Shown here in pieces: positions 11,862 to 36,007 of a stretch of DNA of 39,783 bases. Within the stretch, counting starts at the first letter, position 1, and the number at the start of each line of letters is the position of its first letter. Under the pieces are notes generated by a model. It made no database searches. It was not told the DNA's origin and saw nothing but the letters and a program-made list of their open reading frames with translations. This DNA is from Bacteroidales bacterium (GTDB lineage Bacteria; Bacteroidota; Bacteroidia; Bacteroidales; BM520): NCBI GenBank assembly GCA_016285515.1, contig JAEEQW010000009.1, positions 69,561 to 109,343 of the forward strand, written 5' to 3'. Position numbers and translations under genes: made by a program.

Positions 11862-11868
11862 TGAATTG

Positions 11869-11992: not shown

Positions 11993-13162
11993 TTAATAAT
12001 TCAACCCAAAAGCCCAAAGTGGAATCACGTTACCGTAGCCATATTCTATGTCATCTTTCACCACATAACCCTCTTTTGCATCGGTAAGTTGCTTCTTGCC
12101 TTTGCTTTTCCCACCCACTTCGAAGGTCTTGCCTTGAATCTCGAAATCAGAAATTGGTGAAGAAGTTACTTTTTGGTTGACACGCATTTGATTAAAGAAA
12201 AATGTCTCACGAACGGTGCCAGAATCCTGTTGTCCGCTGCCCAAGGCAAACATCAGGTTCGTGTTGTCCAAATAGATTTTCTCCACTTTGCCGAGTTCGC
12301 CCAAGCCTCCGGTGCCGTCTTTCAGTTGCGCAAGCAGTCCGGCCTTTTCCAAATAAGTCAGATAGTCTTCCACATTGTTGCGGCTGGCCTGAATCTGGCC
12401 TCCGAGGCTGGTCATGTTGGGCTTGTAAGGTACCAATCCGGCCAAAATGACCAACAGTTTTTTCAATTTCTTCGCAGTGCCGATGTTCATGTTGGCATAC
12501 TGCGGAATATCCACCTCGATGGTGCGCGTGATGACTTGGTTCAGTTCCATCTCGAAGTCAGGATCCTGACCAAAAGGATAATAGCCCTCTTTCAGGTATT
12601 CCTTGAAATACACCAAAGGATGGCTCACCTCAGGAATTTTCGCCTCATGATTCAGGATTTGCTCCAAACTGAAGACAGGCACTTTTATCTGATGCCGAAT
12701 AGCCAAAAACTCTCTGAACGAAAGCCCTTGCATAAGATATTTCGGGGCGCGGCGACTGAGGTCGGCCTCGCCTTTCTCAATGTCGAGGATAGACGACCCC
12801 GTGAAATAGACGTGCAAGTCTGGGAAGGCATCATACATCAGTTTCAGCTCTTGTGGCCAGTTACTGTATTTGTGTACCTCGTCAATGAAGAAATACTTTC
12901 CCCCGTTCTTGTTGAAAGTTTCCGCCGTTTCAAAAAGTGTATGTGTCGTAAAATAAAGGTGGTCTGTAGTGACATAAAGTGTGTCACGGAGCGAATGGTG
13001 CCTCTTGATGTGCTGGAGAAACAGGGTAGTCTTTCCCACACCCCGTGGTCCAACTAAGGCCAACATGCGGTTTTGCCAATGAATATCATCGTACTTGTAG
13101 CGGATAAACTGGCTCTTTGTCACGTCAAGCTGTTTCTGCATGAATTGATACAAACTTTCCAT
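11993..13162 (-). CDS. AAA ATPase of the AAA_14/DUF4143-like family (ATPase A)
   Basis: A 389-residue cytoplasmic P-loop ATPase. Walker A is GPRGVGKTT (38-46), Walker B YFFIDEVH (Asp94, Glu95), sensor 1 TGSS (121-124), followed by the family signature SFREFLAI. A helical and winged-helix-like middle (QIQASRNNVEDYLTYLEKAGLLAQL) resembles DNA-binding domains. The C-terminal end has only a degenerate nuclease-like motif (FEVGGKSKGKKQ). Members of this family are abundant in Bacteroidota and archaea and have no established function. The promoter has two dyads (13199-13213, 13231-13245) and the gene is 86 bp downstream of the nitroreductase on the same strand. Two further ATPases of related design lie at 27.6 and 32.4 kb. 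Confidence 0.88.
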   Translation of the reverse strand: MESLYQFMQKQLDVTKSQFIRYKYDDIHWQNRMLALVGPRGVGKTTLFLQHIKRHHSLRDTLYVTTDHLYFTTHTLFETAETFNKNGGKYFFIDEVHKYSNWPQELKLMYDAFPDLHVYFTGSSILDIEKGEADLSRRAPKYLMQGLSFREFLAIRHQIKVPVFSLEQILNHEAKIPEVSHPLVYFKEYLKEGYYPFGQDPDFEMELNQVITRTIEVDIPQYANMNIGTAKKLKKLLVILAGLVPYKPNMTSLGGQIQASRNNVEDYLTYLEKAGLLAQLKDGTGGLGELGKVEKIYLDNTNLMFALGSGQQDSGTVRETFFFNQMRVNQKVTSSPISDFEIQGKTFEVGGKSKGKKQLTDAKEGYVVKDDIEYGYGNVIPLWAFGLNY

Positions 13163-13182
13163 TTTCTTTCGTTTTGACGCTG

Positions 13183-13190
13183 CAAAGATA
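13183..13190 (-). promoter_or_regulatory. -7 element of ATPase A
   Basis: The minus strand reads TATCTTTG, 20 nt before the start codon. The -33 region falls inside the dyad at 13199-13213. Confidence 0.6.
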
Positions 13191-13198
13191 ACAAATTT

Positions 13199-13213
13199 GC
13201 ACTATATAAGTGC
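13199..13213. promoter_or_regulatory. Dyad 1 upstream of ATPase A
   Basis: GCACTATATAAGTGC has perfect 5-bp arms around a 5-nt spacer. It starts 8 bp upstream of the -7 element and covers the expected -33 position, so a bound protein would block transcription. Confidence 0.55.
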
Positions 13214-13230
13214 GGTTTTTTTAAAAAAAT

Positions 13231-13245
13231 GCACTATCCAAGTGC
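13231..13245. promoter_or_regulatory. Dyad 2 upstream of ATPase A
   Basis: GCACTATCCAAGTGC repeats the arms of dyad 1 exactly, 32 bp further upstream (about three helical turns, same face of DNA). A T7/A7 tract separates the two. Confidence 0.55.
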
Positions 13246-13248
13246 GAA

Positions 13249-13890
13249 TTATTCAATAATCAACTGCTCCCAACGAATCTTAGGTACGAACTGCACGCCG
13301 TCGGCATCGCGGTAATAGGCGAGACTGTCGCCAGCATCCACAGGCTCCAACCTGATTTTCTCGTTTCCCTTTCCGATGGCTAAAATCAGTAGCGGCTCGT
13401 AGGGCAAGGCGAAATGTTCGGTGATTTTCGCCTTATTGAACGCGCCAATCATGATGCCGTTCAAGCCCATCTCGGTGGATTTCAGCAACATGCTTTGTGC
13501 TGCAATTCCGAGATCGATGTCCACAAGCTTAGTTTCGGGTACGGTGCTGCAAATGATGATGAACGCCTCTGGCTCCGTACCCTCAAAAGGCAGATGCAAC
13601 TCGGGTAGCAGTCCGCCGAGTTTCATGTTTTGCAGGATGACATCGGCTCCTGTTTCCTTGGTAACTAACTTGAAACGAAGCACTTGCTGGTTCTTTGCGG
13701 AGGCAATCTTGGCATTCACCGCCACGATGCGTTCCAGCATTTCGCGCTTCACAACATAGTCCTTTTGGTAGCCGCGATAGCTGCGGTTTTTTTCCATCAA
13801 AGTTTCAATAGAGGTGTGTCTCACTACGGTCTTCTTGGCACCTGCGCCAAAGACCTCTTCGTAACGTTTTTCAAGGTATCCGTCTGCCAT
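13249..13890 (-). CDS. Nitroreductase family protein
   Basis: A 213-residue FMN-dependent oxidoreductase of the nitroreductase fold. NRSYRGYQKDYVVKREMLERIV matches the usual N-terminal Arg-Ser motif and first helix. DIDLGIAAQSMLLKSTEMGLNGIMIGAFN matches the central helix and the loop before the conserved Gly. PLLILAIGKGNE is the final strand. It has no signal peptide and should be cytoplasmic. The physiological substrate cannot be inferred. It stands alone upstream of ATPase A, and its 5' region is shared with the divergent DUF4838 gene. Confidence 0.85.
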   Translation of the reverse strand: MADGYLEKRYEEVFGAGAKKTVVRHTSIETLMEKNRSYRGYQKDYVVKREMLERIVAVNAKIASAKNQQVLRFKLVTKETGADVILQNMKLGGLLPELHLPFEGTEPEAFIIICSTVPETKLVDIDLGIAAQSMLLKSTEMGLNGIMIGAFNKAKITEHFALPYEPLLILAIGKGNEKIRLEPVDAGDSLAYYRDADGVQFVPKIRWEQLIIE

Positions 13891-14004
13891 GATTTTTGTA
13901 ATTTAATGTCAATTTGAAATGGTTGGCCATTTATTGGATTGCGAAATTACTGTTTTTCTTTCAATCTTTCTCGTTTTATCGTGCTTTTTCAACATTTCTG
14001 CTAT

Positions 14005-14030
14005 CATGTTATTTGCTGCAGCATGTTATT
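14005..14030. repeat. CATGTTATT direct repeat around a TGCTGCAGCA palindrome
   Basis: CATGTTATT occurs at 14005-14013 and 14022-14030, 17 bp apart, with a perfect 10-bp palindrome between and overlapping them. It lies in the intergenic region shared by the nitroreductase and DUF4838 genes, just upstream of the latter's promoter, and may be a regulator site. Confidence 0.35.
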
Positions 14031-14048
14031 CAGTGAGTTGTTTTTCAA

Positions 14049-14080
14049 TTTGACATGAAGATATTGTTTTATTATTTTTG
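14049..14080 (+). promoter_or_regulatory. Consensus promoter of the DUF4838 lipoprotein gene
   Basis: TTTG at 14049-14052, 20 bp, then TATTTTTG at 14073-14080. This is a full match to the Bacteroidota consensus, 24 nt before the ATG at 14105. It rules out the in-frame TTG at 14078, which lies inside the promoter. Confidence 0.75.
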
Positions 14081-14104
14081 CATCACAATTCAAAGGCGGT
14101 GAAT

Positions 14105-16414
14105 ATGAGAAAAACAAATTATTTCAAGATTTTAGGTGCATTAATTACTCTCGGTGCAATTCTTTTTGTCTCATGTAAGGAGGTGACGCGACCTCAGGTC
14201 ACGCTTTCTGCCAATGATGACTATGCCATCGTGATTTCTGAAATGGCTTCCCATGTTGATTCTACCGTCGCCAAAGAGTTGTGTTTCTTCCTGCAACAGA
14301 TTTTCGGACACGAGTACAAAATCATTGCCGATGGAGATTATCATGGAAACCATGCCGTATCCATCGGGCGCAACATGCTTTCTGAATCGCTATATCAACA
14401 GTACGGTAACGAGATTAAGGATGACGGCTTCTTGCTTCTTACTAAAGATGAAAATTTGTATCTTATTGGTAATGAGGGTAAAGCGGTACTTTATGCGGCT
14501 TATCATCTCTTGGAGAAATATCTTGGCTGCACTTACACATGTCAAGACCATATCCACTTTGATGCGCTACCTGATGAGGTGGGCCTCAGCATCCACGACT
14601 TGCAAAACCCCTCGTTTCGCTATCGTGAGACTTTGCACCTTATCCCGAATATTGACCAACGTTATGCCGACTGGCATAAATTGCATAACCGCAATGATTT
14701 CTATAAAGATTGGGGGCTTTTCGTCCATACTTTCCAACGCTTGATACCAGTGGACACCTATTTTGATGAGCATCCTGAATGGTTTTCTTTAATTCACGGG
14801 CAGCGCGTTCGTGACGGACAGCTTTGCCTCAGTAATCCGGAAGTACTCGAAGAACTTTGCAAGAATTTGGAAATCATGATGAAAGCGGAACCTGAAAAAC
14901 AGATATGGTCGGTGTCGCAGAACGACATTGAGTCATCGTGTACCTGTCCTGACTGCCGCCGCCTTGATTCGATTTTTGGTGGTCCCTCTGGTACCATGCT
15001 GTATTTCGTCAATCAAGTGGCTGCGCGTTTCCCTGACAAAATCATCTCTACTTTGGCTTATCAGTATACACGTCGTCCGCCCCAAGGCATCAAGCCCGCC
15101 GACAATGTCAATATTATGTTCTGCTCCATTGAGTGCCAACGGCAGATTCCCATTGCCAACAACCAGGCTTGTGCTTCGTTTATGCGCGATATGGAAGGCT
15201 GGTGTGCCCTCACCGACAACATTTTCCTTTGGGATTATGTGGTGCAGTTCCGCAATTATATGGACCCATTTCCGAACCTGCATGTCATCGGTCCCAATCT
15301 AAAGACCTTCCACGAATTTGACATCCCGATGATGTTTGAACAAGGTTCGAACCAGAACATCACTGAGAACTACGAATGGCGTACCTTCCTCATCGCGCAC
15401 CTGATGTGGGATGTGAATACAGACACCGACAGTCTCCGCAACCGTTTCATGGATGCTCATTATGGTCCCAATCGTGCTCCATTCATCAAGCAATACCTTG
15501 ACACTATGCAGCAAGCCCTTCTAGACTCAAAACAGGTGCTGAACATCTACGGCTATCCTATCAATGCCAAAAATGGCTATCTCGCACCTGATAAAATCAA
15601 GTTTTATCAAACGCTTTTTGAAAACGCTTGGAAGACAGCCCCTTGCGAAAATATCTCTGAGAAGGAAAGAACTGAATATAACAATCGGCTACGTCTGTTG
15701 GAACTTACGCTCGACTTTGCCATCCTCGACCTTTCCATGAGTGAGTTGGCACCTGAACTTTCTTATTTCACCTACGATGAGAAAGGAAACAGAGTGGTTA
15801 ATCCTGAGATGTTGGCGAAGGCTGACCGGTTTGTGGCCGACTGTGAGCGATTGGGTGTCAAGCGATTGGATGAAGCCAAGGCTACTCCAATACAATTTCG
15901 ACAGAACATCGACAACTACATCAGCAAATCGATACAGCCTGATATTGCAAGGGGCAAGACGGTGACCTGTTCCACCGAATGGAGTAACAATTACGATGTG
16001 GGTGGTCCTAAGGCTCTTACTGACGGCAAGATGGGTATTATGAACTATAACTACAACTGGCTCGGTTTTCAAGGCAACGACATGGATGTGGTTATTGACT
16101 TGGACAGCATCCAAGCCGTCAATTTAGTCAGTATTGACTTTTTGCTGTTTCCGCTTGCATGGATTTTTATACCCAAGCGAGTGACCTGCTATCTTTCAAA
16201 CGATGGCGAGAACTGGAATGAGGTTGGCTCTAAGACCTATCAAAATCCAACTTATCTGTTGGAATGTAAAATTGAGAACTTTTCTTTCACGAACCTGCAC
16301 GGGCAAGCGCGCTATGTTCGTGTGAAGGCTGAATCGTTACTAACCAATCCTGAATGGCATCGCGGTGTAGGACAATTATGCTGGATTTTCTGCGATGAGG
16401 TGATTGTGAGATGA
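14105..16414 (+). CDS. DUF4838 lipoprotein with C-terminal discoidin-like carbohydrate-binding domain
   Basis: A 769-residue exported protein. The lipoprotein signal MRKTNYFKILGALITLGAILFVSC has its lipid-modified Cys at 24. An N-terminal domain like the non-catalytic domain of GH20/GH67 enzymes (KELCFFLQQIFGHEYKII, then EGKAVLYAAYHLLEKYLGC) precedes a large DUF4838 region, a predicted glycoside-hydrolase-like barrel (NDIESSCTCPDCRRLD, MFEQGSNQNITENYEW). The last ~150 residues (ARGKTVTCSTEWSNNYDVGG to DEVIVR) form an F5/8 type C fold that would bind glycans. A role in host- or plant-glycan breakdown at the cell surface is inferred, supported by the GH20 enzyme downstream. Catalytic residues and substrate are not known. 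Confidence 0.85.
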   Translation: MRKTNYFKILGALITLGAILFVSCKEVTRPQVTLSANDDYAIVISEMASHVDSTVAKELCFFLQQIFGHEYKIIADGDYHGNHAVSIGRNMLSESLYQQYGNEIKDDGFLLLTKDENLYLIGNEGKAVLYAAYHLLEKYLGCTYTCQDHIHFDALPDEVGLSIHDLQNPSFRYRETLHLIPNIDQRYADWHKLHNRNDFYKDWGLFVHTFQRLIPVDTYFDEHPEWFSLIHGQRVRDGQLCLSNPEVLEELCKNLEIMMKAEPEKQIWSVSQNDIESSCTCPDCRRLDSIFGGPSGTMLYFVNQVAARFPDKIISTLAYQYTRRPPQGIKPADNVNIMFCSIECQRQIPIANNQACASFMRDMEGWCALTDNIFLWDYVVQFRNYMDPFPNLHVIGPNLKTFHEFDIPMMFEQGSNQNITENYEWRTFLIAHLMWDVNTDTDSLRNRFMDAHYGPNRAPFIKQYLDTMQQALLDSKQVLNIYGYPINAKNGYLAPDKIKFYQTLFENAWKTAPCENISEKERTEYNNRLRLLELTLDFAILDLSMSELAPELSYFTYDEKGNRVVNPEMLAKADRFVADCERLGVKRLDEAKATPIQFRQNIDNYISKSIQPDIARGKTVTCSTEWSNNYDVGGPKALTDGKMGIMNYNYNWLGFQGNDMDVVIDLDSIQAVNLVSIDFLLFPLAWIFIPKRVTCYLSNDGENWNEVGSKTYQNPTYLLECKIENFSFTNLHGQARYVRVKAESLLTNPEWHRGVGQLCWIFCDEVIVR

Positions 16415-16444
16415 TATTTGTCTTGGTTTGTTGGCCGTTTCTTT

Positions 16445-17800
16445 TTAAATGTTTTTAATTATGTCCCTGAGCAGACGGTTGAAATCAATCTCATGGTCGG
16501 GCTTAGGAGAATATCCAAGTATTACGACCACCAGGTCTTTGGATGGTATTATGAAAATCTGCTGACCGTCGTGTCCGACGCAGGAATACATATCCTCCGG
16601 AACATCTGGAAAATGCCTGTCTGCATTCAACCAGAAAAAGCTGCCATATTGTTTTGCACTGGCTGATGCAGGTGTGCGGGTATATTTTACCCAGGATTCG
16701 GGAAGTATGCGTTGTCCGGCGAACATGCCGTTGTTTAGGTATAGTAGTCCGAAACGGGCGAAATTACGCGCAGTGGTGTACAGGTAGGAAGAACCTACCG
16801 GTGTCCCGCTCATATCAGTTTCGAAGTAAACATCTCGGATTCCGAGGGGAGCAAACAGCCTGTTGCCTATATATGCGTAGAAGTCTTCGTCAGAATCGAA
16901 TTTGCCACGGAGATACCTCATGACTATGTTTGTGCTTCCGGAAGAATAGTACCAGAAGGTTCCAGGCTTGTGTTTCAAGGATTTGCCAATGGCGTAATAG
17001 CCCATGTCTTCCTCCCTGTGGAGCATTAAATTCACATCCGAGCGTGCCCCATAGTCTTCGTTCCACTCAAGACCGCTCTGCATTTGCATAATATCGTTCA
17101 GTGTGATGTCTTTTCTTTCATCGTTCTGCCATTCGGGAATGTCCATCGGAACGTTGATATCCACAATTCCATCGGAAGCCATGAGACCAACTATGGCATT
17201 GGTGAAACTTTTGGCCATACTCCAGGAAAGTAATGGGGTGTTGACATTACAATTGTAACCATAACGCTCTGCCACTATGTTGCCATTATGGAGAACTACG
17301 AAGGCAAACGGAGTGCCGTTATAGACCTTGTCATCGACAAGTGCTTTGGAAATTGGCTCAATTTTATGTGTGAGCTGTTGGTCGGCTGAATCAATGTCTG
17401 TTGGAATTATGTAGCCCAAAGGCCATAAAATTGTATCGGGGTCGCATGAAACGAACTCCGGAAGTTTAGCTCTGCTATACAGATTTGCTTTATCACCACG
17501 CAAAAGAGTCACTCCATAATCAGGTATGTAAACTGCATTCGATTTGCCCCAAAGAAAACGGCTGGTTACAGTTTTGTTTTCATAGTCTATCGTGTTGTGA
17601 GTGAACCTGATGAATGAGAAGTTCAAATCCAGATTCTCCACATCATCCTGTTCCCTGCCGGATATGAAAACTGCTGAGGCAAGATTCTTGGCTGCATAGC
17701 CGGTTATGATGCACATCAAACTGTTCAGGTAAATAATAACAGCAACAATGGCTGCCAGAACTAAACCCGTCACACTCCAAAGTATGGCTTTTCTTCTCAT
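16445..17800 (-). CDS. Membrane-anchored serine hydrolase, beta-lactamase/class C-like
   Basis: A 451-residue protein with one N-terminal TM helix (about residues 7-27), after which the enzyme faces the periplasm. The catalytic core shows SMAK (Ser194-Lys197), a YSSGSTN motif serving as the Tyr-x-Asn-type element, and HDGQ in place of the KTG triad. This is the pattern of the beta-lactamase/D-alanyl-D-alanine peptidase/esterase clan (PF00144). It may act as a peptidase, esterase or amidase; resistance to beta-lactams should not be assumed. It converges on the DUF4838 gene (30-bp gap) and is divergent from the GH20 gene. A -7 element lies at 17834-17827. Confidence 0.9.
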   Translation of the reverse strand: MRRKAILWSVTGLVLAAIVAVIIYLNSLMCIITGYAAKNLASAVFISGREQDDVENLDLNFSFIRFTHNTIDYENKTVTSRFLWGKSNAVYIPDYGVTLLRGDKANLYSRAKLPEFVSCDPDTILWPLGYIIPTDIDSADQQLTHKIEPISKALVDDKVYNGTPFAFVVLHNGNIVAERYGYNCNVNTPLLSWSMAKSFTNAIVGLMASDGIVDINVPMDIPEWQNDERKDITLNDIMQMQSGLEWNEDYGARSDVNLMLHREEDMGYYAIGKSLKHKPGTFWYYSSGSTNIVMRYLRGKFDSDEDFYAYIGNRLFAPLGIRDVYFETDMSGTPVGSSYLYTTARNFARFGLLYLNNGMFAGQRILPESWVKYTRTPASASAKQYGSFFWLNADRHFPDVPEDMYSCVGHDGQQIFIIPSKDLVVVILGYSPKPDHEIDFNRLLRDIIKNI

Positions 17801-17826
17801 TTGCTTTTAGAAATTATGATAGTTTG

Positions 17827-17834
17827 CAAAAATA
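17827..17834 (-). promoter_or_regulatory. -7 element of the serine hydrolase gene
   Basis: The minus strand reads TATTTTTG, 26 nt before the start codon at 17800. The -33 box is not recognisable. Confidence 0.5.
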
Positions 17835-17919
17835 TAAAATCTATTTATGAAACGGCTCTTTATACCAAAATAGTTTCCGATTATTCCTCGCAACTGGAGC
17901 AAGTTTACTATAATTTGAT

Positions 17920-17928
17920 TATCTTTGC
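17920..17928 (+). promoter_or_regulatory. -7 element of the GH20 gene
   Basis: TATCTTTG (position good to one base), about 24 nt before the ATG at 17952. A longer reading frame that begins with TTG inside this element is rejected as the start. Confidence 0.55.
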
Positions 17929-17951
17929 CTAAAATTCAAAATACTATCCCA

Positions 17952-20078
17952 ATGAAAAAACTGGCCCTAATCTGCATCATGGCGTTGCTTTTCGCCTCCT
18001 GCACCAAACAACTTCCTCAAGCCAATTACGATATCATTCCACAACCTAAGGAGTTGTCGATAACGAATGAAAAACCTTTTGTGATTCAGTCGGGCACCAT
18101 CGTTTACTATGAAGAAGGCTTGCAGCGCGAAGCACAGTTCCTCAGCGAATATGTAAACGACATCATGGGATTTGCCATGAACGTAGAAAAATATCAAGAC
18201 CAAACGGATGGTATAGTGTTGAAGCTCGTTCCCGATGATTTCAACCAAGCCGAGTCCTACGAAATCAACGTCACACCAACTCAAGTCGCTGTCAAAGGCG
18301 CTGATGCAGCTGGCGTGTTCTATGGCGTCCAGACCATTCGTAAGAGCCTCCCTAACTGCCAGCCGCAAACTAACTGTTGCCAACTGTCCACTTGTACTAT
18401 CCGCGACTGGCCAAACTTTCCCTATCGTGGAATGCATCTCGACCCTTGTCGCCACTTTATGGATTTGGACTCGGTAAAGATATACATTGACATGTTAGCC
18501 TTGCACAACATGAACCAGTTTCATTTCCATCTCAGCGAGGACCAAGGCTGGCGTATCGAAATCAAGAAATACCCTGAACTTACCAAGGTGGGCGCTTATC
18601 GCAACGGCACTGTTATCGGTCGCAACGGTCGGATTTATGACACCATCCGCTATGGTGGCTTTTATACCCAAGAGCAACTCCGCGACCTTGTGCAATATGC
18701 CGCTGAGCGTCATGTTAACATCATCCCTGAAATCGACCTGCCCGGTCACATGCAGGCGGCTTTGGCATCGTATCCTTGGTTGGGTTGCACGGGTGGACCA
18801 TACGAGGTGTGGCGTCGCTGGGGCGTGTCGGACGATGTGCTCTGCGCCGGTAACGAGGCGACCATGCAGTTCGTTGAGGACGTGCTTAACGAGGTGATGG
18901 ACATCTTTCCTTCGCCATATATCCATATCGGTGGCGACGAGTGTCCCAAGGTGCGTTGGCAGCAGTGTCCGAAGTGCCAGAAGAAGATTAAAGAGTTAGG
19001 CATCAAGTCCGATGGGCGTTTCTCGAAGGAGGACTACCTGCAATCGTATGTGATGAACCGCATGGCGAAGGTGGTGGAAGCCCGTGGCCGTCGTGTCATC
19101 GGATGGGATGAGATATTGGATGGCAACGTCTCCGAGACGGCTATCATCATGAGTTGGCGTGGTACGGAAGGCGGCATCGAGGCTGCGCGGAAAGGTCACG
19201 ATGTGATTATGACTCCCTCATCGCACCTCTATTTCGACTATTACCAAAGCGAGGATCCTTCCACAGAACCTTCGTGTGTGGGCGGCTACCTGCCTGTGTC
19301 GAGGGTGTATGACTTCCGTCCGCTGCCGAAAGAGCTGACGGAGGAACAGCAGAAACACATCATCGGTGTGCAGGCCAACATCTGGACGGAGTACATCACT
19401 TCGTTCAGGCATGTGGAGTATATGGCCATGCCGCGCATGGATGCCTTGGCAGAACTGCAATGGAACAATCCTAACCCCGAGGACCGCGACTTCGACGCTT
19501 TCGTGGAGCGTTGCCGGCGCATGGCACAGCTCTACGACCTTTACCATTATAACTACGCCAAACAGATTTTCTCTCACCAGGTCTATACGGATACGGTGGT
19601 ACCGAACCTCGCCACCCGCAAGCCCATTTATCTGCGGGAGCAACCCAACGAGAAGTACGCCTCCAAAGGAGCTACTGTCCTCAACGACGGCGAAATGGGA
19701 CGCATCGCCTATACCTCAGGACGCTGGCTCGGCTTCTGGGGACAGCCACTTGATGCGGTCATCGACTTGGAGCAGCCTGCTACGATGAGTCATGTCCGTT
19801 TCCGCTCCTTGGTGGATAAGGGAGCGTGGATTTACAACCCAAGCCATGCGAGTGTGCTCGTATCTGACGACGGAGAAACCTTCCGTGAAGTGGCACAAAT
19901 GGATATTCCTATCACCACCTGGAACGACAAGGATGGTAACCTTACTTACGAGTTGAACTTTGAACCCGTCACTGCACGTTTTGTGGAAGTCATCGTCAAG
20001 GACCATATACTTCCCGAGGACCATGATGGCTTCGGCTATCCCGCCTGGATTTTCGTGGACGAGATTGAAGTGTGGTGA
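17952..20078 (+). CDS. GH20 beta-N-acetylhexosaminidase lipoprotein with C-terminal discoidin-like domain
   Basis: A 708-residue surface enzyme that releases terminal GlcNAc or GalNAc from glycans. The lipoprotein signal MKKLALICIMALLFASC places the lipid on Cys17. Residues ~24-150 are the GH20 N-terminal beta domain. The barrel begins at FPYRGMHLDPCRHF; the catalytic pair is IHIGGDECP (Asp329-Glu330), and PEIDLPGHMQAAL carries the conserved substrate-binding His. The last ~140 residues, from about 565 (ATVLNDGEMGRIAYTSGRWLGFWG), are an F5/8 type C/CBM32-like module. The pairing of a hexosaminidase with a DUF4838 lipoprotein fits host-mucin or N-glycan use; the substrate linkage is not predicted. 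Confidence 0.95.
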   Translation: MKKLALICIMALLFASCTKQLPQANYDIIPQPKELSITNEKPFVIQSGTIVYYEEGLQREAQFLSEYVNDIMGFAMNVEKYQDQTDGIVLKLVPDDFNQAESYEINVTPTQVAVKGADAAGVFYGVQTIRKSLPNCQPQTNCCQLSTCTIRDWPNFPYRGMHLDPCRHFMDLDSVKIYIDMLALHNMNQFHFHLSEDQGWRIEIKKYPELTKVGAYRNGTVIGRNGRIYDTIRYGGFYTQEQLRDLVQYAAERHVNIIPEIDLPGHMQAALASYPWLGCTGGPYEVWRRWGVSDDVLCAGNEATMQFVEDVLNEVMDIFPSPYIHIGGDECPKVRWQQCPKCQKKIKELGIKSDGRFSKEDYLQSYVMNRMAKVVEARGRRVIGWDEILDGNVSETAIIMSWRGTEGGIEAARKGHDVIMTPSSHLYFDYYQSEDPSTEPSCVGGYLPVSRVYDFRPLPKELTEEQQKHIIGVQANIWTEYITSFRHVEYMAMPRMDALAELQWNNPNPEDRDFDAFVERCRRMAQLYDLYHYNYAKQIFSHQVYTDTVVPNLATRKPIYLREQPNEKYASKGATVLNDGEMGRIAYTSGRWLGFWGQPLDAVIDLEQPATMSHVRFRSLVDKGAWIYNPSHASVLVSDDGETFREVAQMDIPITTWNDKDGNLTYELNFEPVTARFVEVIVKDHILPEDHDGFGYPAWIFVDEIEVW

Positions 20079-20170
20079 AACAGGCTGCATGAGGATGAAC
20101 AGGCAGTTATAAGATTGTGTTAAATATTGTTAAAGTCTAAATTATTTCTTGATATTGTCAAATTTTGTTG

Positions 20171-20178
20171 TACTTTTG
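20171..20178 (+). promoter_or_regulatory. -7 element of the ABC transporter operon
   Basis: TACTTTTG fits TAnnTTTG, 43 nt before the ATG at 20222. A TTG at 20150-20152 is a plausible -33 remnant. A TGTTAAA direct repeat (about 20119-20136) lies just upstream and could be a site for the GntR-type regulator encoded by the third gene. Confidence 0.5.
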
Positions 20179-20221
20179 CAGTGTTCTAATTTACTAATAC
20201 ACAAACACAAAATAAAATATC

Positions 20222-21049: not shown

Positions 21050-21067
21050 CGTTAACAATTACTCATT

Positions 21068-21907: not shown

Positions 21908-21910
21908 ATC

Positions 21911-22264: not shown

Positions 22265-22294
22265 GGAGATGTAGTGAATTTCGGAAATTATTGT

Positions 22295-22302: not shown

Positions 22303-22344
22303 CAAGGTATTTTATTCTGAATTTGCAACTAAACGTTAAAAGAA

Positions 22345-23223: not shown

Positions 23224-23238
23224 TCAGTGATAATCGAA

Positions 23239-23280
23239 GCAAAGAAAGCCAGAGCCCAAAATCTCTGGCTTTCTTTGTTT
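23239..23280 (+). terminator. Strong intrinsic terminator
   Basis: A perfect 15-bp stem (23240-23254 with 23263-23277) closes on an 8-nt loop and is followed by TTT. The stem core is GCCAGAG/CTCTGGC. It lies 16 bp after the lipoprotein stop. Confidence 0.85.
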
Positions 23281-23330
23281 CTAAATGAAAGATTATAATG
23301 TATTGTTACACAAAATTATACCAACATATC

Positions 23331-25940: not shown

Positions 25941-25963
25941 AGTCATCGTGGCTTTTTGCCATC

Positions 25964-27397
25964 ATGGTTCGTAATGCCATTAAAGCAGCTTTCTTGGGAT
26001 TGGGGTTCCTCTTGTTCGCCTGTCATCCCGAATCAAAGGATATGCGCCAAGCCGCCCACGAAGCTTTGGAAAACGCCCGCATTCAGTTGGATTCCGGCAA
26101 CAAGTCGGAGGCCATGCAGTTGTTCAAAGATGCGGAGCATTATGGATTGTTGGCGGACGACACGCTGACGGTGGCCCGTGCGCGGTTCAATATTGCGAAA
26201 TGCTTGAGCGTTTATGCCGATGAAAAAGAGTTCGTTTCGTTGTTGAAGGCTGCCGACGAGGGCTTTGGCAACCATTACACCGAACGCGCCAAAGTGATGA
26301 CCGTTTGGGGCGATTATTACCAATTCCATAGGCAATTTGACAGCGCGGAGGTCTATTTGAACCGCGCGATGGACTATGCGGAACGAAGTGGTTCGATGGA
26401 TGCAAAACGTTGTGTTTTGTCCGCTTTTCATGTGAAGTGTTTCAACGCCGGGGAATACAGAAAGTCAGGCGATTACTTGCAGCAGTACTTCCAAACCTAT
26501 CCCCCCGATGCCAGCGACAGCCTGCTGATGTATTATTACCACAACATGGGGAACGTCTATTATAAGATGGGCAACATGGATTCGATGGCCTATTGCTACG
26601 GTCGCTTGGAGGAACTTGTAACCCAATCAGAAACAGATTGTTGTGAGCCAAATGAAGACACGTGGTATTACTATGGAACGTTGGCCAATTTTGCCGAGAT
26701 GCGCGGCGATTATGAAACGGCTTGCGAGTACATTTATCAGTATGAAAAAGGCGATACGCATTACGAAATAGAGCGGCGGGAAAACAACCTCGCACTCATC
26801 AGCCATAAATATGACAGTGCGGTGATGCAGAACGAGTTGAACGCGAAAATCATTCGGAAACAGCGCGTTATCGTTGTCATCAGTTTGGTGGCGGTTTTGG
26901 TTCTGGCGGCATTGTTGGTGTCGCAAATCCGCTTGGCACGGCGGCGTAAGCGCGAAGCCGAAATCAATGCTGAACTTTTCCACTTCAAGCAGCAAAACAA
27001 AGCCTTGGCACAAAAAGATGCCGAGCATGAGCAAATCCAGCAGGACTATGCCGACCGCCTTTCTGAGGCTTTGGATAAGGAACAGCAGGTAATGCTTTTG
27101 TTGGACAACTATTTGAACAATGATAAGCGAGCTAATCTTCTCAGCGACTTGGGGAAATCTGTTTTTGGCGATAAAGACCATTGGGAGGCCATGCTGGAAG
27201 TGGTGGAGCAAAAGTATCCTGACCTTTGGGAAACGCTTCAAAAAAAATATCCCGACTTGGACGAGGACGAGCGGAAATCCTACATCCTTTCGCTTTTCAA
27301 GGTCTCGCGACAAGAAGAAGCCGACTACCTTGGAACTACTGTTAATATGGTGGACAAACTTCGCGGGCGGCGGCGGAAGAAGATGGAAGAAGGCTAA
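25964..27397 (+). CDS. TPR lipoprotein-like membrane protein with cytoplasmic helix-turn-helix-like tail
   Basis: A 477-residue protein. MVRNAIKAAFLGLGFLLFAC resembles a lipoprotein signal with Cys20. TPR-like helical repeats fill residues ~28-270 and would lie outside the inner membrane. One TM helix is at about 301-322 (VIVVISLVAVLVLAALLVSQ), followed by Arg/Lys, a coiled coil (~330-385), and a C-terminal ~100-residue helical domain ending EEADYLGTTVNMVDKLRGRRRKKM, similar to sigma-region-4/LuxR-type helix-turn-helix segments. The same plan recurs in the protein at 32.7-34.3 kb. It is likely a membrane-tethered regulator sensing an envelope signal; DNA binding is inferred. It probably shares a transcript with the subtilase. 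Confidence 0.75.
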   Translation: MVRNAIKAAFLGLGFLLFACHPESKDMRQAAHEALENARIQLDSGNKSEAMQLFKDAEHYGLLADDTLTVARARFNIAKCLSVYADEKEFVSLLKAADEGFGNHYTERAKVMTVWGDYYQFHRQFDSAEVYLNRAMDYAERSGSMDAKRCVLSAFHVKCFNAGEYRKSGDYLQQYFQTYPPDASDSLLMYYYHNMGNVYYKMGNMDSMAYCYGRLEELVTQSETDCCEPNEDTWYYYGTLANFAEMRGDYETACEYIYQYEKGDTHYEIERRENNLALISHKYDSAVMQNELNAKIIRKQRVIVVISLVAVLVLAALLVSQIRLARRRKREAEINAELFHFKQQNKALAQKDAEHEQIQQDYADRLSEALDKEQQVMLLLDNYLNNDKRANLLSDLGKSVFGDKDHWEAMLEVVEQKYPDLWETLQKKYPDLDEDERKSYILSLFKVSRQEEADYLGTTVNMVDKLRGRRRKKMEEG

Positions 27398-27474
27398 GAT
27401 TATGGAGTTCGAGTCGCTGATGGAGAGCGAAGAGAACGTGGAGAAGATGAAATAATTGTAAGATTTTTCTATCG

Positions 27475-27506
27475 TAATGGAAAATTCTTATAAGTTTTTT
27501 CCATTA
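27475..27506. promoter_or_regulatory. 32-bp imperfect palindrome upstream of ATPase B
   Basis: Arms TAATGGAAAA (27475-27484) and TTTTCCATTA (27497-27506) are perfect inverses, and the centre holds a second palindrome CTTATAAG (27487-27494). In all, 28 of 32 positions are symmetric. It ends 16 bp before the -7 element and covers the -33 region. Confidence 0.65.
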
Positions 27507-27522
27507 TATTGTGAAAATATTG

Positions 27523-27530
27523 TATTTTTG
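27523..27530 (+). promoter_or_regulatory. -7 element of ATPase B
   Basis: TATTTTTG fits TAnnTTTG, 23 nt before the ATG at 27554. Confidence 0.6.
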
Positions 27531-27553
27531 CACTCAATCCGAACTATAAAAGC

Positions 27554-28687
27554 ATGATTGAACGTCGTCTGAAACAACTCATTATTCCTAGACTTTTTAA
27601 AGGTAAAGCCATTGTGCTGACGGGCCCGCGTCAGGTGGGCAAAACCACCTTGCTTCGAATGTTGATGGCTGAAACCGACAAAAAAACGTTGTTTTGGAAT
27701 TGCGACGAGCCAGACATAAGACAAAAACTGTCTAATCCAACTTCAACCCAATTGCAGGCTGATACAGCGCAAGCCGACCTTATTTTAATAGACGAAGCAC
27801 AGCGCGTCCAGAACATAGGCATTACCCTCAAATTGCTCATTGACAATTTCCCAGAAAAGCAAATTGTTGTCACTGGATCATCGGCATTACGACTCTCCAA
27901 CACCATCAACGAGCCATTGACAGGAAGGAAATACGAATACAACATGCTCCCGTTTTCTTCAGAGGAACTTATTGACAATCATGGTAATACAGAGGAGAAG
28001 AGGCTTTTGGAAAGAAGAATGGTCTATGGTATGTATCCGGAAGTGGTCAATTTGCCAGGAGAGGAACGCGAGACCCTGTCAAATCTCGTCAACAGCTATC
28101 TTTATAAGGATGTTTTCGCTTTTCAGGATGTTCGGAAACCTGAGATTGTCGAGCAATTGCTTCAAGCCTTAGCGTTACAAATGGGCAGCGAGGTGTCTTT
28201 CAATGAACTTTCCAAGTTATTGGGATTGAATTCGTTAACAGTTCAGCGTTACATTGATTTGTTGGAAAAGTCGTACATCGTTTTTCATTTGCGCTCCTTC
28301 AGCCGCAATCTGCGAAACGAACTGAAAAAAAGCCGCAAGATTTATTTCTACGACAACGGCGTGCGTAACGCGATACTTGGCGACTTCAAGCCGCTACAGC
28401 TTCGACAAGATGCGGGTGCACTTTGGGAGAACTATCTCGTGAGTGAACGCCTGAAGCACAACTCCTACAGTCTTTTTTATGGGAAAAGTTACTTCTGGCG
28501 CACCCAGCAACAGCAAGAAATCGATTATTTGGAAGACATTGACGGACTTTTGCATACTTATGAATTCAAATGGAGTAGCAACAAGCGGTCCAAACTGACC
28601 GAAACCTTTGCCAACAGTTATCCCGACCATACTTTCATGGTTGTCAACCCGGAGAATTATCAATACTTTGTGGTGGGGAAAAATTGA
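27554..28687 (+). CDS. AAA_14/DUF4143 ATPase (ATPase B)
   Basis: A 377-residue cytoplasmic protein. The ATPase core has Walker A GPRQVGKTT (24-32), Walker B LILIDEAQR (Asp80, Glu81), sensor TGSSAL, and the GRKYEYNMLPFSSEEL signature. A winged-helix-like part (VSFNELSKLLGLNSLTVQRYIDLLEKSYIVFHL) follows. The C-terminal DUF4143 domain keeps a PD-(D/E)XK nuclease-like motif, EIDYL then YEFKW about 12 residues later, so a nuclease fold is expected; activity is unproven. No function is established for the family. It has its own promoter with a 32-bp palindrome over the -33 region, and is not part of the TPR regulator's transcript unless read-through occurs. Confidence 0.93.
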   Translation: MIERRLKQLIIPRLFKGKAIVLTGPRQVGKTTLLRMLMAETDKKTLFWNCDEPDIRQKLSNPTSTQLQADTAQADLILIDEAQRVQNIGITLKLLIDNFPEKQIVVTGSSALRLSNTINEPLTGRKYEYNMLPFSSEELIDNHGNTEEKRLLERRMVYGMYPEVVNLPGEERETLSNLVNSYLYKDVFAFQDVRKPEIVEQLLQALALQMGSEVSFNELSKLLGLNSLTVQRYIDLLEKSYIVFHLRSFSRNLRNELKKSRKIYFYDNGVRNAILGDFKPLQLRQDAGALWENYLVSERLKHNSYSLFYGKSYFWRTQQQQEIDYLEDIDGLLHTYEFKWSSNKRSKLTETFANSYPDHTFMVVNPENYQYFVVGKN

Positions 28688-28815
28688 GTTAATCAAACAT
28701 TAAACCGCCAAAATCTTTGGACTTTTCCCAGAAAAAGTTTGGAATTGAAACTGATTCATCTCATTTGTTTTCAGGATATTACATTTTTAAAACCTCGGAA
28801 TTGTTTGGACTGCCC

Positions 28816-28846
28816 TTTCGACCGCTTGACAAACAAGGTATTTTTG
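28816..28846 (+). promoter_or_regulatory. Promoter of the M23-like/S41 fusion gene
   Basis: TTTC near 28816, about 19 bp, then TATTTTTG at 28839-28846. This is close to the consensus, 27 nt before the ATG at 28874. Confidence 0.55.
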
Positions 28847-28873
28847 CTTTCAAATTTCAAAACGCATCCATCT

Positions 28874-31030
28874 ATGAAAACAAAATCCATCATTTTCGCA
28901 TTGCTGTTCATGGTCAACTTTGCTTTTGGGCAGGAAAACTACCTTTGGCCTGTCGCTCTGTCTTTAGACAAAAAGGCTGGCGACGACATCCTATACCGAC
29001 CTCAAGACTACATCGGAGTGGCCGATGGCTTAACCCAAGCCGAGTTGAATTTTGATCGTTTGATTATTGGGGCGCCTTTGTGGACGCCCGTGCTTTGCCC
29101 CGTGGATGGGAAAATCACTCATGCCAGCATTGGCTATAGCAACAGTTTCAGTTGTTCCGTTGATGTATTCAACCAACAAACGGGAAACTTCGAGCAGGAT
29201 TCCCTGCTGTTCGTCGAGTGGGGAATGTCGCCGGAAAAGATCCGTTATCTGAACACATGGGTTTCCATTCGCGTTTCCGACGGACGGGAGGTGCACGTGA
29301 GCGGTATGCGCCCGCTGCGACTGTTCAAGACGGGCGAAATCGTGCATCGGGGCGATGTGTTGGGCACCGTGGGCTATTATTACAAGCGCATCAAGAAGCC
29401 ATGCGTTGTGGTCAGCATCTCAAAAAACTCCAAAGCCGACGATCCGATGACACCTTTCGGGCTGAAAACGACTTTTATCCCGCCCAAGGTGAACAACAAG
29501 ACCCAACTGACCCGCGAGGAGGCACAAGCCGACATCGACGGCATGATAACGGCTCTTGAAGATGCTTTCCCGGGACTGTATGACTACACGCCGAAAGAGG
29601 AATTCGATACCTATATCAAAAACAGAATGGCTGCGATAGGCGAAACCATCTCCAGAAGTGATTTTGAGGTATTAGTTTTCAAGTTGCTTGGGAAAATCCA
29701 CGACAGTCATACGGCCATCATCTCAGAGCCGAAAGTGACGAGTGCAAGTGGGTTGCCTTCCTCAGTGTGTTTAGGTTGGTTCAACGACACGCTACGGGTA
29801 TGGCGCACCGTTCCAAGATACAAAGACTATCTCGGCAAACCAGTGGTTTCAGTAAATGGCATTCCCGCCGATTCTCTGAAAGACATGGTGTTGGAGTATG
29901 CCACCTATTCCGATGGCTATGTGAAGAGCTATGGTGATTATGTGCTTCTGTATGGAATGGATAATTACTACTGCGACCAAATCGCGAAGGATGCCAACTT
30001 TATGGTTACTTTTGCTGACGGCGAGACGAAGCGTTTTGAGCAGATGAAACCCAAAGACCCTTACCGCGAACCACAATGGTTAGAATACCAATACCGCCAT
30101 TTCCATGCAAACGAAAAGACGCATTTCGACTTTGAAAAACTCTCTGACACAGTGGCTTACCTCGCCCTCCATACTTTCGAGTTGGACGATTTGGAAATGG
30201 AACAAATCGATGAAATCTTTGCCAATCTCATTGCCGACAGCATTCCCAACCTGATTCTTGACATTCGTTTCAACTATGGCGGACCAGAAGCCACAGTGGA
30301 AGGCGTTTATGTGCATCTGGCCCAGAAGCCGTTCTGCACCAGTCTGCGCAAAATCGTGAACAAAAAAGGCGGTTATCAATGCTTCGGCAGTTGTCCTGTG
30401 GATGCCAACCAAGAAGACTATTATCCTGATTACAAGCCGCTTCCGAATGGTGAGGGGTTTGTAAAGGACGAGCCGGAATGGAAGTCACCTGATTCTTTAG
30501 TCAACTATAAAGGGCGGCTGTATCTGCTCACCAACGAGACTTCGTTTTCGGCTTCCACCATGTTTGCAGGCTGGGTGAAAAAGCAGAACCGTGGTGTCAT
30601 CGTCGGGCGCGAGACAGGCTCGGCTTACCATCAAATGAAGGCAGAGAATTTTACACAATACCTGTTGTCGAATTCCGATATCGCCATCCAAATCCCAACG
30701 ATCAAGGTGGTGTTCGACACAGTGGTCAACGAGCGTTTCCCCTACGGTCGCGGTGTGCTTCCCGATTATCCCGTCAACTTCACGCCTGAGGAACTATCCT
30801 TTGTCCACGGTGATTCCATCCTGAACTACACCCTGCAACTCATTCAAGATGGCAAATACATCTATTACGTGGAGCCTGAACCAGAGACACCGAGCGTTGA
30901 GGAGGACGCGCGTCCCTTTCGTTGGTGGTGGGTCGCTGTAGGAGTGGTGGCTTTGGCGGTGATTGTTGGGGTGGGTTGGAAGAGAAAGAAGAAAGGAGAA
31001 GACATTGTCAAAACAAGTCGTCAAGAATAA
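28874..31030 (+). CDS. Fusion of M23-like domain and S41 family peptidase with C-terminal TM anchor
   Basis: A 718-residue exported protein. The signal peptide ends at NFAFGQ. Residues ~20-205 resemble a lysostaphin-type M23 fold (APLWTPVLCPVDGKITHASIGY, GEIVHRGDVLGTVGYYYKRIKKP, DDPMTPFGL) but lack a visible HxH zinc site, so this half may be inactive and bind peptidoglycan or peptides. Residues ~212-660 are an S41 C-terminal processing-type protease: a PDZ-like strand (VVSVNGIPADSL), ILDIRFNYGG, and the nucleophile motif TSFSASTMF with Ser559. A C-terminal TM (WWWVAVGVVALAVIVGVGW) with a basic tail anchors it. The upstream in-frame ATG at 28739 precedes the promoter and is rejected. Its 3' end overlaps the convergent ATPase C by 23 bp. 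Confidence 0.83.
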   Translation: MKTKSIIFALLFMVNFAFGQENYLWPVALSLDKKAGDDILYRPQDYIGVADGLTQAELNFDRLIIGAPLWTPVLCPVDGKITHASIGYSNSFSCSVDVFNQQTGNFEQDSLLFVEWGMSPEKIRYLNTWVSIRVSDGREVHVSGMRPLRLFKTGEIVHRGDVLGTVGYYYKRIKKPCVVVSISKNSKADDPMTPFGLKTTFIPPKVNNKTQLTREEAQADIDGMITALEDAFPGLYDYTPKEEFDTYIKNRMAAIGETISRSDFEVLVFKLLGKIHDSHTAIISEPKVTSASGLPSSVCLGWFNDTLRVWRTVPRYKDYLGKPVVSVNGIPADSLKDMVLEYATYSDGYVKSYGDYVLLYGMDNYYCDQIAKDANFMVTFADGETKRFEQMKPKDPYREPQWLEYQYRHFHANEKTHFDFEKLSDTVAYLALHTFELDDLEMEQIDEIFANLIADSIPNLILDIRFNYGGPEATVEGVYVHLAQKPFCTSLRKIVNKKGGYQCFGSCPVDANQEDYYPDYKPLPNGEGFVKDEPEWKSPDSLVNYKGRLYLLTNETSFSASTMFAGWVKKQNRGVIVGRETGSAYHQMKAENFTQYLLSNSDIAIQIPTIKVVFDTVVNERFPYGRGVLPDYPVNFTPEELSFVHGDSILNYTLQLIQDGKYIYYVEPEPETPSVEEDARPFRWWWVAVGVVALAVIVGVGWKRKKKGEDIVKTSRQE

Positions 31031-32441
31031 CACATTTGACGATGTGTTCTGAATAGGCATTGCGCTGCAAGCTGAAAGGCGTGATGAAAACTGGGATGAT
31101 ACCTCCAGAATAGTCGGTTTCTTGTTGGAAACGGGCTATGCGGTTTTGGAATTTTAGATGTTCTTCCTTATCAATCAAGTAGTTGTTGGGACTGTATTTT
31201 ATCTCGCAAATATTTGCCATGTGGTCGGCGCGTTCAATGATGAGGTCGATTTGGGCTTTGCGACCGTTGTCTTCGTTCTCAGCCGTACTTCGCCATGAGT
31301 AATAAGTGGTTTTGATGGCCTCAATGCCGAGCGCTTTTTTGATTTTGGGGATATGAGCGAGGCAGATGCGCTCAAAAGCCAAGCCTCTCCATGTATTGAC
31401 TGATGGCGTGTTCTGGCTTTTGGTCCAGAAATGCTCGTCATTTTCAATACCCTTGACAAATTGCAGATAAAAAGCAGTGTAAAAGTCGGTCAGTTGGTAC
31501 AGCCCGCTTTGCTTGGAGATTTTCTTTTTCTTGATGTTGTAGAATCTGACCAAATCGCAATCAACGAGATTGTTCAGCATTTTGGTCAGTCTGCCGCTTG
31601 ACTTTTTCCCAGTGATTTGGGTGATTTCGTCCCGAGAAAGACCTTTCTTTTTGCTGAACAGAGCCTCAATGATGGCGATATACGGTTCATAATTGGTGAA
31701 AAGAGTTTTGTAAAGGCGTTGGAATTCGCGCCGCATTTCTCCGTCGGTACGGAAAAACAACCGGTCGATGTTTTGCGCGAGGCTTTCTTCTCTGTTCAAA
31801 AGGCTGAGGTAATAAGGTATGCCGCCCAAAGCCATGTAGGTTTGCAGGGTTAGCAACCTGTCCCACGGGAAACCGCCAGTTTTTAGGTATTGCTCGGTTT
31901 CACTAAGTGTAAACTCCTTGAGGTGCATCTCGTGCGTGATGCGGTCGTGCAGTCCGCCGTGGCTGTCAATAATGTTTTCCATCATCCATGAGGTGGCCGA
32001 GCCGCAAACAATGAGCATGATGTTGTTTTGCAGCGAAGCCCAACTGTTCCAGAAATACCCCAGCGCATTAGCAAAATCCGATTGGCGGGTGTCGAAACAG
32101 GGAAGTTCGTCGATGAAAACGATGCATCGTTTGTTTCTGTTCAATTTTTTCATCAAGAAATGGCGCAGCATTTGGAATGCCTCATACCAGTCTTTGGGTT
32201 TTTTTTCGAGCGAATTACCGTACAAGTTCATCGCGTCACAGAAAGCGTGTATCTGCGCGGCTTTGTTTCCTTCCATGACACCTGTCATGGAAAAGGTGAA
32301 TTTTTCTCCGAAAGTTCTGTTTATCAGGAATGTTTTGCCCACACGGCGGCGACCATAAAGGGCCACAAATTCTGCTTTTCCCGATTGGGCGTATTTCTTC
32401 AAAAGTTTGGTTTCTTCTTCGCGACCGATGAGTTTGTTCAT
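31008..32441 (-). CDS. Archaeal-type ATPase with C-terminal DUF234/PD-(D/E)XK-like domain (ATPase C)
   Basis: A 477-residue cytoplasmic protein. IGREEETKLL precedes Walker A (GRRRVGKT, 30-37), and Walker B is CIVFIDELP (Asp111, Glu112). This is the PF01637 ATPase pattern. A winged helix follows (LSRDEITQITGKKSSGRLTKMLNNLVDCDLV). The C-terminal domain carries QIDLIIE then ICEIKYS, a D-x(n)-E-x-K nuclease-like motif of the DUF234 type. The function of the family is not established. It has its own promoter (32472-32465) with two dyads 51 bp apart, and its 3' end overlaps the S41 gene antiparallel by 23 bp. Confidence 0.93.
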   Translation of the reverse strand: MNKLIGREEETKLLKKYAQSGKAEFVALYGRRRVGKTFLINRTFGEKFTFSMTGVMEGNKAAQIHAFCDAMNLYGNSLEKKPKDWYEAFQMLRHFLMKKLNRNKRCIVFIDELPCFDTRQSDFANALGYFWNSWASLQNNIMLIVCGSATSWMMENIIDSHGGLHDRITHEMHLKEFTLSETEQYLKTGGFPWDRLLTLQTYMALGGIPYYLSLLNREESLAQNIDRLFFRTDGEMRREFQRLYKTLFTNYEPYIAIIEALFSKKKGLSRDEITQITGKKSSGRLTKMLNNLVDCDLVRFYNIKKKKISKQSGLYQLTDFYTAFYLQFVKGIENDEHFWTKSQNTPSVNTWRGLAFERICLAHIPKIKKALGIEAIKTTYYSWRSTAENEDNGRKAQIDLIIERADHMANICEIKYSPNNYLIDKEEHLKFQNRIARFQQETDYSGGIIPVFITPFSLQRNAYSEHIVKCVILDDLF

Positions 32442-32464
32442 GGCATTAAGGTTTTTATCGGCTG

Positions 32465-32472
32465 CAAAAATA
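32465..32472 (-). promoter_or_regulatory. -7 element of ATPase C
   Basis: The minus strand reads TATTTTTG, 23 nt before the start codon at 32441. The expected -33 box falls at the near edge of dyad 1. Confidence 0.6.
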
Positions 32473-32494
32473 ATAAAAAGGAATCAAACTCGCG

Positions 32495-32527
32495 TTCCAA
32501 ATCGAAGAAATTTTTCGCGATTTGGAA
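32495..32527. promoter_or_regulatory. Dyad 1 upstream of ATPase C
   Basis: TTCCAAATCG (32495-32504) and CGATTTGGAA (32518-32527) are perfect 10-bp inverses around a 13-nt spacer that itself contains GAAATTTTTC. It lies 22 bp upstream of the -7 element. Confidence 0.65.
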
Positions 32528-32536
32528 ACTTTTCTT

Positions 32537-32587
32537 AAACTCATGTTCCAAACAGATGATTTTTTAGGTGATTTGGAATCTGAGTTT
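32537..32587. promoter_or_regulatory. Dyad 2 upstream of ATPase C
   Basis: A second copy exactly 51 bp from the first: TTCCAAA (32546) and TTTGGAA (32572) have the same 26-bp spacing as in dyad 1. The outer AAACTC and GAGTTT extend the arms to 16 bp with 2 mismatches. The two dyads form a tandem repeat with inverted symmetry. Confidence 0.6.
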
Positions 32588-35951: not shown

Positions 35952-36007
35952 TTAATGTGGTTATCCCAAAACAACATAAAAATGATAAACAAATAAGGCT
36001 TGGAACA

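Follow-up and report, generated by a model that had tools for sequence, protein, structure and literature searches.

What controls a family of ATPase genes of which one genome may hold dozens of copies, and how could each copy be controlled apart from the others? The question is raised by a 39,783-nucleotide stretch of a Bacteroidales genome (contig JAEEQW010000009.1, positions 69,561 to 109,343; hereafter the window), in which three genes, A, B and C, encode ATPases of the AAA_14/DUF4143 (A and B) and ATPase_2 (C) families. The initial annotation of the window had noted upstream of each gene a dyad unrelated to the other two and lying at the same promoter position, and had proposed that each protein represses its own gene. 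The description as single unrelated dyads is too narrow: these promoters carry arrays, the period of which is specific to the protein clade. The autoregulatory interpretation itself is supported by sequence comparisons, and we consider it likely that each of the three ATPases uses its winged helix to bind its own array, which would keep its own gene repressed.

The TAnnTTTG element previously placed before each start codon (here the -7 box, from the start of which operator positions were measured) is present at the distances given in Table 1. The dyads are present as well, and above chance: in the window the pattern of A has two matches versus a mean of 0.01 in 100 shuffles, that of C two and that of B one, versus none in shuffles. 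They are not single, however, as A and C have two tandem dyads each. In the case of B, the supposed dyad TAATGGAAAA/TTTTCCATTA is actually composed of the facing arms of two neighbouring palindromic units, the right arm belonging to 27464-27484 and the left arm to 27496-27517; since the relatives of B show palindromes spaced by 32 bp, which rules out the single-dyad reading, the promoter was reread as two such units. The common geometry proposed earlier holds for A and B, where an operator is centred 16 bp before the -7 box, between it and the -33 box, and a second one lies 32 bp further up, but not for C, where the centre of the proximal dyad is 39 bp from the box, further up than in A and B, and the step to the distal dyad is 51 bp. 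As to the private character of the motifs, exact matches to GCACT-N5-AGTGC and TTCCAAA-N19-TTTGGAA occur genome-wide only at the two promoter sites of A and of C, respectively, and of 14 other units of the same genome, searched over 0.53 Mb with 11- or 12-base seeds, 12 are unique to their own promoter; the two non-unique seeds are C25:33550, with an extra match on C37, and that of C43, with an inverted near-copy downstream of the gene.

The genome (2.58 Mb, 54 contigs) yields 29 matches to DUF4143, 45 to AAA_14 (37 over the cut-off) and nine to ATPase_2 (six over the cut-off). We compared 39 family promoters (29 of DUF4143 genes, eight of ATPase_2 genes, two of these below the cut-off, and two of further AAA_14 genes) with 58 of 104 boxed promoters of other genes, retained for having less than 30% of the upstream region coding. 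In many of the family promoters tandem repeats precede or surround the -7 box, with a sequence differing from gene to gene. Direct repeats exceed the 95% quantile of the controls in 18 of the 39, direct or inverted repeats do so in 23 (versus 6/58), and a class spacing is found in 25 (versus 3/58). In a tree of 31 proteins the best direct repeat falls at 33 or 66 bp in all members of a clade of ten, the best repeat at 23 bp in all members of a clade of four, and at 32 bp in all four members of the clade of A, although two of these four 32-bp lags score nowhere near above the controls (p 0.525). B and its own-genome paralog C35 have two palindromic units each, 32 bp apart. The repeat spacing thus follows the protein clade, being 32-33, 33, 23 or about 52 bp. 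The possibility of invertible promoters was dismissed, as copies flanking the -7 box looked, by eye, direct and not inverted.

Among homologs, the measure was whether the best self-repeat lag of a promoter falls into the window of its class, and the controls were 252 neighbouring genes, chosen so that at most half of the upstream region was coding and that the protein had no P-loop-like motif close to its start. The best lag is 32 or 33 in 36 of 50 promoters of the A class (15/252 in controls), and the class lag was found in 70 of 100 promoters of the B class (15/252). For the 33-bp class, in which all 30 loci were counted, a lag of 32, 33 or 64-66 occurs in 23 (25/252), for the 23-bp class a lag of exactly 23 in 14/14 (13/252 for 23 or 46), and for the C class a lag of 51-55 in 10/19 (11/252). 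Most orthologs therefore have repeats at the promoter position, as the initial annotation had anticipated. The B-class count covers 100 of 110 loci, those with a short upstream region, a short or interrupted protein or a low score being dropped together with L213 (29% identity). In the 23-bp class 15 of 30 loci were considered, of which the fragment L168 was dropped, the remote matches L169-L183 being outside the count. Of 30 C-class loci 27 genes were found; one without an ATG, one with a short upstream region and six at 30% identity or less were removed.

Among 79 of the 80 GTDB loci of the B class, with 61 lags tried, the best lag is exactly 32 in 44 and 33 in nine. Outside Bacteroidota, where groups were taken from record titles, 10 of 20 loci have a lag of 32 or 33, some with weak scores, including loci of Treponema, Termititenax, Coxiellaceae, Saccharibacteria and Verrucomicrobia; most Patescibacteria are among the ten without it. 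Family relatives occur on plasmids (549 of 72,556 records) and in phages (21 of 50,697). Five of ten hand-picked promoters of plasmid relatives of B have a best lag of 22, 23, 23, 45 and 32 bp (L356, L359, L362, L358 and L363, respectively); the others, L355, L357, L360, L361 (lag 29) and L364, show no clear class lag.

The arrays also keep a register with respect to the core promoter. In the B class operator centres cluster near -48, -16 and +14, an operator is centred between -19 and -13 in 32 of 57 promoters, and 45 of the 57 second operators fall within a single 7-bp phase window of 32. In the A class an operator is centred between -20 and -12 in 25/31, a register favoured by the TTTGCA that follows the box, since this sequence can form a half-site. 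Arrays extend into or beyond the -7 box in 17 of 26 cases in the A class and in 9/17 in the 33-bp class, and in the B class 11 of 57 promoters have an operator centre downstream of it.

An indication of who reads the arrays comes from the co-variation of motif and protein, which the initial annotation had put forward as a test. Operator calls in the B class used the DNA only (pairs 31-34 bp apart, z >3 versus shuffles), and 67 of 100 genes have a called pair, 59 of them at 32 bp. Out of 334 protein columns, the best for bases 5, 6, 7, 8 and 9 are N226, L228, S227, L257 and K262, respectively; in the AlphaFold2 (AF2) model of B residues 226-228 form the start of the recognition helix and residues 257-262 lie in the wing region. 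Under a phylogenetic null, in which 400 traits were simulated on a tree built without residues 196-266, base 5/N226 retains a family-wise p of 0.0025 and base 6/L228 is reached in 0/400 simulations; for bases 7, 8 and 9 the top columns are unchanged and not significant (family-wise p 0.40, 0.31 and 0.275). With the first registration (69 genes), K228 goes with C at base 6 in 23/27, Q228 with G at base 6 in 5/5 and D226 with C at base 5 in 43/51. For bases 2, 3, 4 and 10 the top columns are mostly outside the winged-helix region. In the A class, where operators were called in 37 of 50 genes (z >2.5), N262 is paired with G before CA in 16/17. The predicted co-variation is accordingly established for two bases of the B class, where it survives the phylogenetic null, and is suggestive in the A class, where it fails family-wise correction.

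In individual comparisons, close relatives share the motif and others differ in it. The half-site is AATGG in the array of B and AATCC in that of its paralog C35. The 11 relatives of A (50-64% identity) in which the recognition helix starts at S/G-R-N all have GTGC-type half-sites. The own-genome paralogs C36 (54%, SKN) and C18 (52%, DRG) have motifs differing from that of A, the units of the former mixing ATCCCT with AGTGC or AGGGAT. In the 23-bp class, L155, a 74% relative, carries a unit identical to that of the own-genome gene. We regard it as well supported by these sequence data that the B-class array is read by its own protein, and as likely that the same applies to the A class.

Profiles and models describe the proteins as follows. 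The coordinates and domain families of the three genes were confirmed by open reading frames and Pfam; Walker A and Walker B residues and the fold of AAA+/STAND P-loop ATPases are present. In the AF2 models of A and B the ATPase domain is followed by a predicted helix-helix-recognition helix-wing arrangement, comprising in B (mean predicted local distance difference test 89.7) H196-208, H216-223, H227-239, E243-248 and E261-265, and in A (90.6) H227-243, H250-257, H261-273, E277-281 and E293-298. B-class proteins have a PD-(D/E)XK-like putative nuclease domain with conserved residues, E298, D324, E337 and K339 being invariant in 26/26 aligned sequences. B matches the PADLOC profile PDC-S01 at E 1.6e-161 over positions 1-373 of the 375-position model, A matches it partially (residues 30-298, E 3.8e-27), and C matches PDC-S27 in full length (1-477, E 5.7e-186). 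Structural comparison gave only partial matches with Foldseek, including a structure of the maltose-regulator system, and 2fna and 2qen with VIA-align. A search of the sequences of the Protein Data Bank found with the B profile only stretches of AAA/P-loop proteins and with C none; nothing was above the NCBIfam cut-off for five proteins; and no Rfam family reached the gathering score within the window, so that a reading of the repeats as RNA structure is unsupported.

Several observations weigh against self-recognition and repression as a general rule. The class lag is absent in 30/100 B-, 14/50 A-, 7/30 33-bp- and 9/19 C-class promoters, and among ten relatives of A outside the 50 (L112-L119, which are distant, at 33-36% identity, several with uncertain starts, and the fragments L120 and L121) a best lag of 33 was found in one, at a low score, with no clear array in the ten. 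Sister-pair (cherry) tests of the B class are weak, L228/base 6 giving p 0.045 and rank 12/312 and N226/base 5 rank 45/312. In the A class N262 has rank 2/357 and a non-significant family-wise p of 0.447, several top columns are outside the winged helix (P39, G365), and the sole significant column, L236 (bases 7 and 8), which belongs to the first helix of the winged-helix region, hinges on the few rows departing from C/A. Finally, the 23-bp arrays reach the -7 box in 0/11, all 11 ending upstream of it, a position that would suit an activator.

This last point leads to the possibility that binding of the ATPase to its own array serves to activate the promoter. STAND activators such as MalT use repeated boxes, and MerR proteins activate from the -35/-10 spacer; the operators described here are phase-locked to the promoter, a need of activators, and the maltose-regulator system is among the partial structural matches. 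Activation is possible in the 23-bp class because of where its arrays end, whereas many arrays and operators of the A, B and 33-bp classes reach into or past the -7 box, where activators are rare, and on the whole we find activation unlikely. It is quite improbable that the array is primarily a target, self-tag or incompatibility site of a selfish or defensive nuclease, promoter control being secondary. Such a function would agree with the conservation of the Walker and PD-(D/E)XK-like residues, the private sites, the occurrence of relatives on plasmids and in phages, and the second, inverted array that follows the C43 gene; on the other hand, the arrays sit in the promoter at a preferred register, neither the A nor the C motif has an exact genomic site beyond its promoter array, and the comparison meant to reveal element ends or empty sites gave no usable relative.

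That some regulator other than the ATPase reads the arrays seems very improbable to us: one dedicated regulator would be needed for every copy, and two bases of the B-class operator co-vary with recognition-helix residues of the ATPase itself. Could the repeats be due to chance, to low complexity or to common descent of AT-rich promoters? The regions are indeed AT-rich, and 15 of the 252 controls have their best lag at 32 or 33, the two most frequent control lags being 32 and 23, perhaps because some controls share a divergent promoter with an ATPase. Nevertheless, lags of 23, 32/33 and 51-55 are class-specific, the repeated sequences are unrelated, and the arrays exceed own-genome controls, neighbour-gene controls and shuffles, which makes this explanation hardly credible.

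Autorepression is thus the most likely consequence of self-recognition, and could be accomplished as follows. Dimers would lie next to each other at a distance of about three helical turns in A and B and of about five in C; in A and B, RNA polymerase would be blocked by the operator that has its centre between the -33 box and the -7 box. Private specificity should allow dozens of copies to reside in one genome without mutual repression. The repressed product would be an ATPase-nuclease, possibly set free once it is pulled off the array by an invader or by stress.

Table 1. Genes, core promoter boxes, putative operators and protein motifs of ATPases A, B and C (positions in the window)
Feature	Position	Strand	Remarks
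ATPase A	11993..13162	-	AAA_14 + DUF4143-like (weak DUF4143 match), predicted winged helix; Pfam
Codons of predicted recognition helix of A	12344..12382	-	Residues 261-273; S260-R261-N262 at helix start; AF2
A -7 box TATCTTTG	13183..13190	-	20 nt before ATG
A proximal operator GCACTTATATAGTGC	13199..13213	-	Centre 16 bp before -7 box; putative
A distal operator GCACTTGGATAGTGC	13231..13245	-	32 bp upstream of A proximal operator; putative
B distal operator unit TTTTTCTATCGTAATGGAAAA	27464..27484	+	Palindromic; putative
B proximal operator unit TTTTTCCATTATATTGTGAAAA	27496..27517	+	32 bp from distal unit, centre 16 bp before -7 box; putative
B -7 box TATTTTTG	27523..27530	+	23 nt before ATG
ATPase B	27554..28687	+	AAA_14 + DUF4143 (Pfam), PADLOC PDC-S01
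Codons of B residues 226-228 (N-S-L)	28229..28237	+	Start of predicted recognition helix; top co-varying columns for operator bases 5 (226), 6 (228) and 7 (227, not significant family-wise)
B PD-(D/E)XK-like motif D324...E337-x-K339	28523..28570	+	Invariant in 26/26 aligned sequences
ATPase C	31008..32441	-	ATPase_2 (PF01637), PADLOC PDC-S27
C -7 box TATTTTTG	32465..32472	-	23 nt before ATG
C proximal dyad TTCCAAA-N19-TTTGGAA	32495..32527	-	Genome-wide and window pattern search
C distal dyad TTCCAAA-N19-TTTGGAA	32546..32578	-	51 bp from C proximal dyad

Some features of these genes and their surroundings deserve separate mention. The inverted near-copy of the promoter array of the C43 ATPase gene (about 29280-29350) lies some 300 bp downstream, as if bracketing a cassette. 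On C25 (about 91280-92095) an ATPase of the 23-bp class is truncated at the N-terminus (counted from its first ATG it has 222 aa) and has retained its 23-bp array; a longer relative of this truncated gene, with an identical unit, is present in a genome of the same genus (L157, 98.8% over 838 bp). Short dyad repeats of the type GGCTGCCACGGTGTGACAGCC lie between the end of A and the next gene (11860-11990), and similar strings are found beside the C37 and C25 ATPases. Pfam recognised no cognate methyltransferase or antitoxin among four scanned genes neighbouring A, B and C, a scan that did not include the gene at 10473-11861; the four encode a nitroreductase, an S41 peptidase, a protein with sub-cut-off TPR/DUF6377 matches and a further protein that no Pfam family matched. 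The gene of the S41 peptidase, which separates B from C (28739-31030), has one match (26% identity) at E <=1e-20 in 20 related genomes. Elsewhere in the window, a YolD-like gene adjoins a Y-family DNA polymerase gene (Pfam IMS) at 3612-5576, and three consecutive proteins of about 500 aa (34461-39268) share a near-identical segment near the C-terminus (GFAVAVAYPNPG), apparently as a result of tandem duplication.

The families in question are far from rare. PDC-S01 has been ranked fourth in frequency among the defence systems of prokaryotes, PDC-S27 being also abundant; both are ATPases fused to the PD-(D/E)XK superfamily, and PDCs remain unvalidated candidates for phage defence (PMC12988326). 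In rumen genomes, 10,358 PDC-S01 were counted (PMC13356809). B and C resemble PDC-S01 and PDC-S27, respectively, in their full-length profile matches and in the combination of an ATPase with a PD-(D/E)XK-type domain; the accessible parts of the two accounts give counts, distribution and trees, and describe no operator, autoregulation or DNA specificity (PMC12988326, PMC13356809). Among the papers listed by searches of an open-access library, none was recognised as treating operators of AAA_14/DUF4143 or ATPase_2 families. In Thermus thermophilus, RNA of the AAA_14/DUF4143 gene TT_P0211 was up 6.6-fold with plasmid DNA, only with Argonaute (PMC4406477, Table 1), which we take as a lead and no more. 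No repeat at a class lag was found upstream of the B-like ATPase gene carried by another Thermus pTT27 plasmid (L355).

We tentatively suggest, as a broader possibility that may well prove wrong, that PDC-S01 together with PDC-S27 are self-insulated switches, in which repressor, ATPase and nuclease are combined in one polypeptide that reads a private array in its own promoter through a recognition code located where the winged helix starts, release from the array serves as the trigger, and diversification of the code allows dozens of copies to accumulate in a single genome. If the DNA site of such a protein can be read from its own promoter, assays of binding, ATPase and nuclease activity would at once have a cognate array to work on in place of random DNA. 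The code would allow the operator of a B-class protein to be predicted from its residues 226-228, and the arrays should tell which paralogs are able to share a genome.

Of proteins with a determined structure, the archaeal AAA+/STAND ATPases SSO1545 (2fna) and PABY2304 (2qen) are similar to the ATPases described here at 16-19% identity, the matches spanning residues 1-276 and leaving the C-terminal nuclease-like domain outside; to our knowledge, no DNA site is known for either. In regulatory logic the likeness is to C-protein restriction-modification systems and toxin-antitoxin operons, where the product or its partner binds operators at its own promoter, and private specificity would prevent cross-talk in the same way. 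Unlike these, regulator, ATPase and nuclease-like domain would here be one polypeptide, and the operators are arrays with a clade-specific period. In the architecture of the DNA a parallel is provided by the iterons to which plasmid Rep proteins bind, direct repeats with a spacing of some two or three helical turns, located beside the gene of their binder: the ATPase arrays are similar in direct-repeat spacing and in adjacency to the gene of the proposed binder, but belong to chromosomal genes, involve AAA_14/DUF4143 and ATPase_2 proteins instead of Rep, and differ in period from clade to clade.

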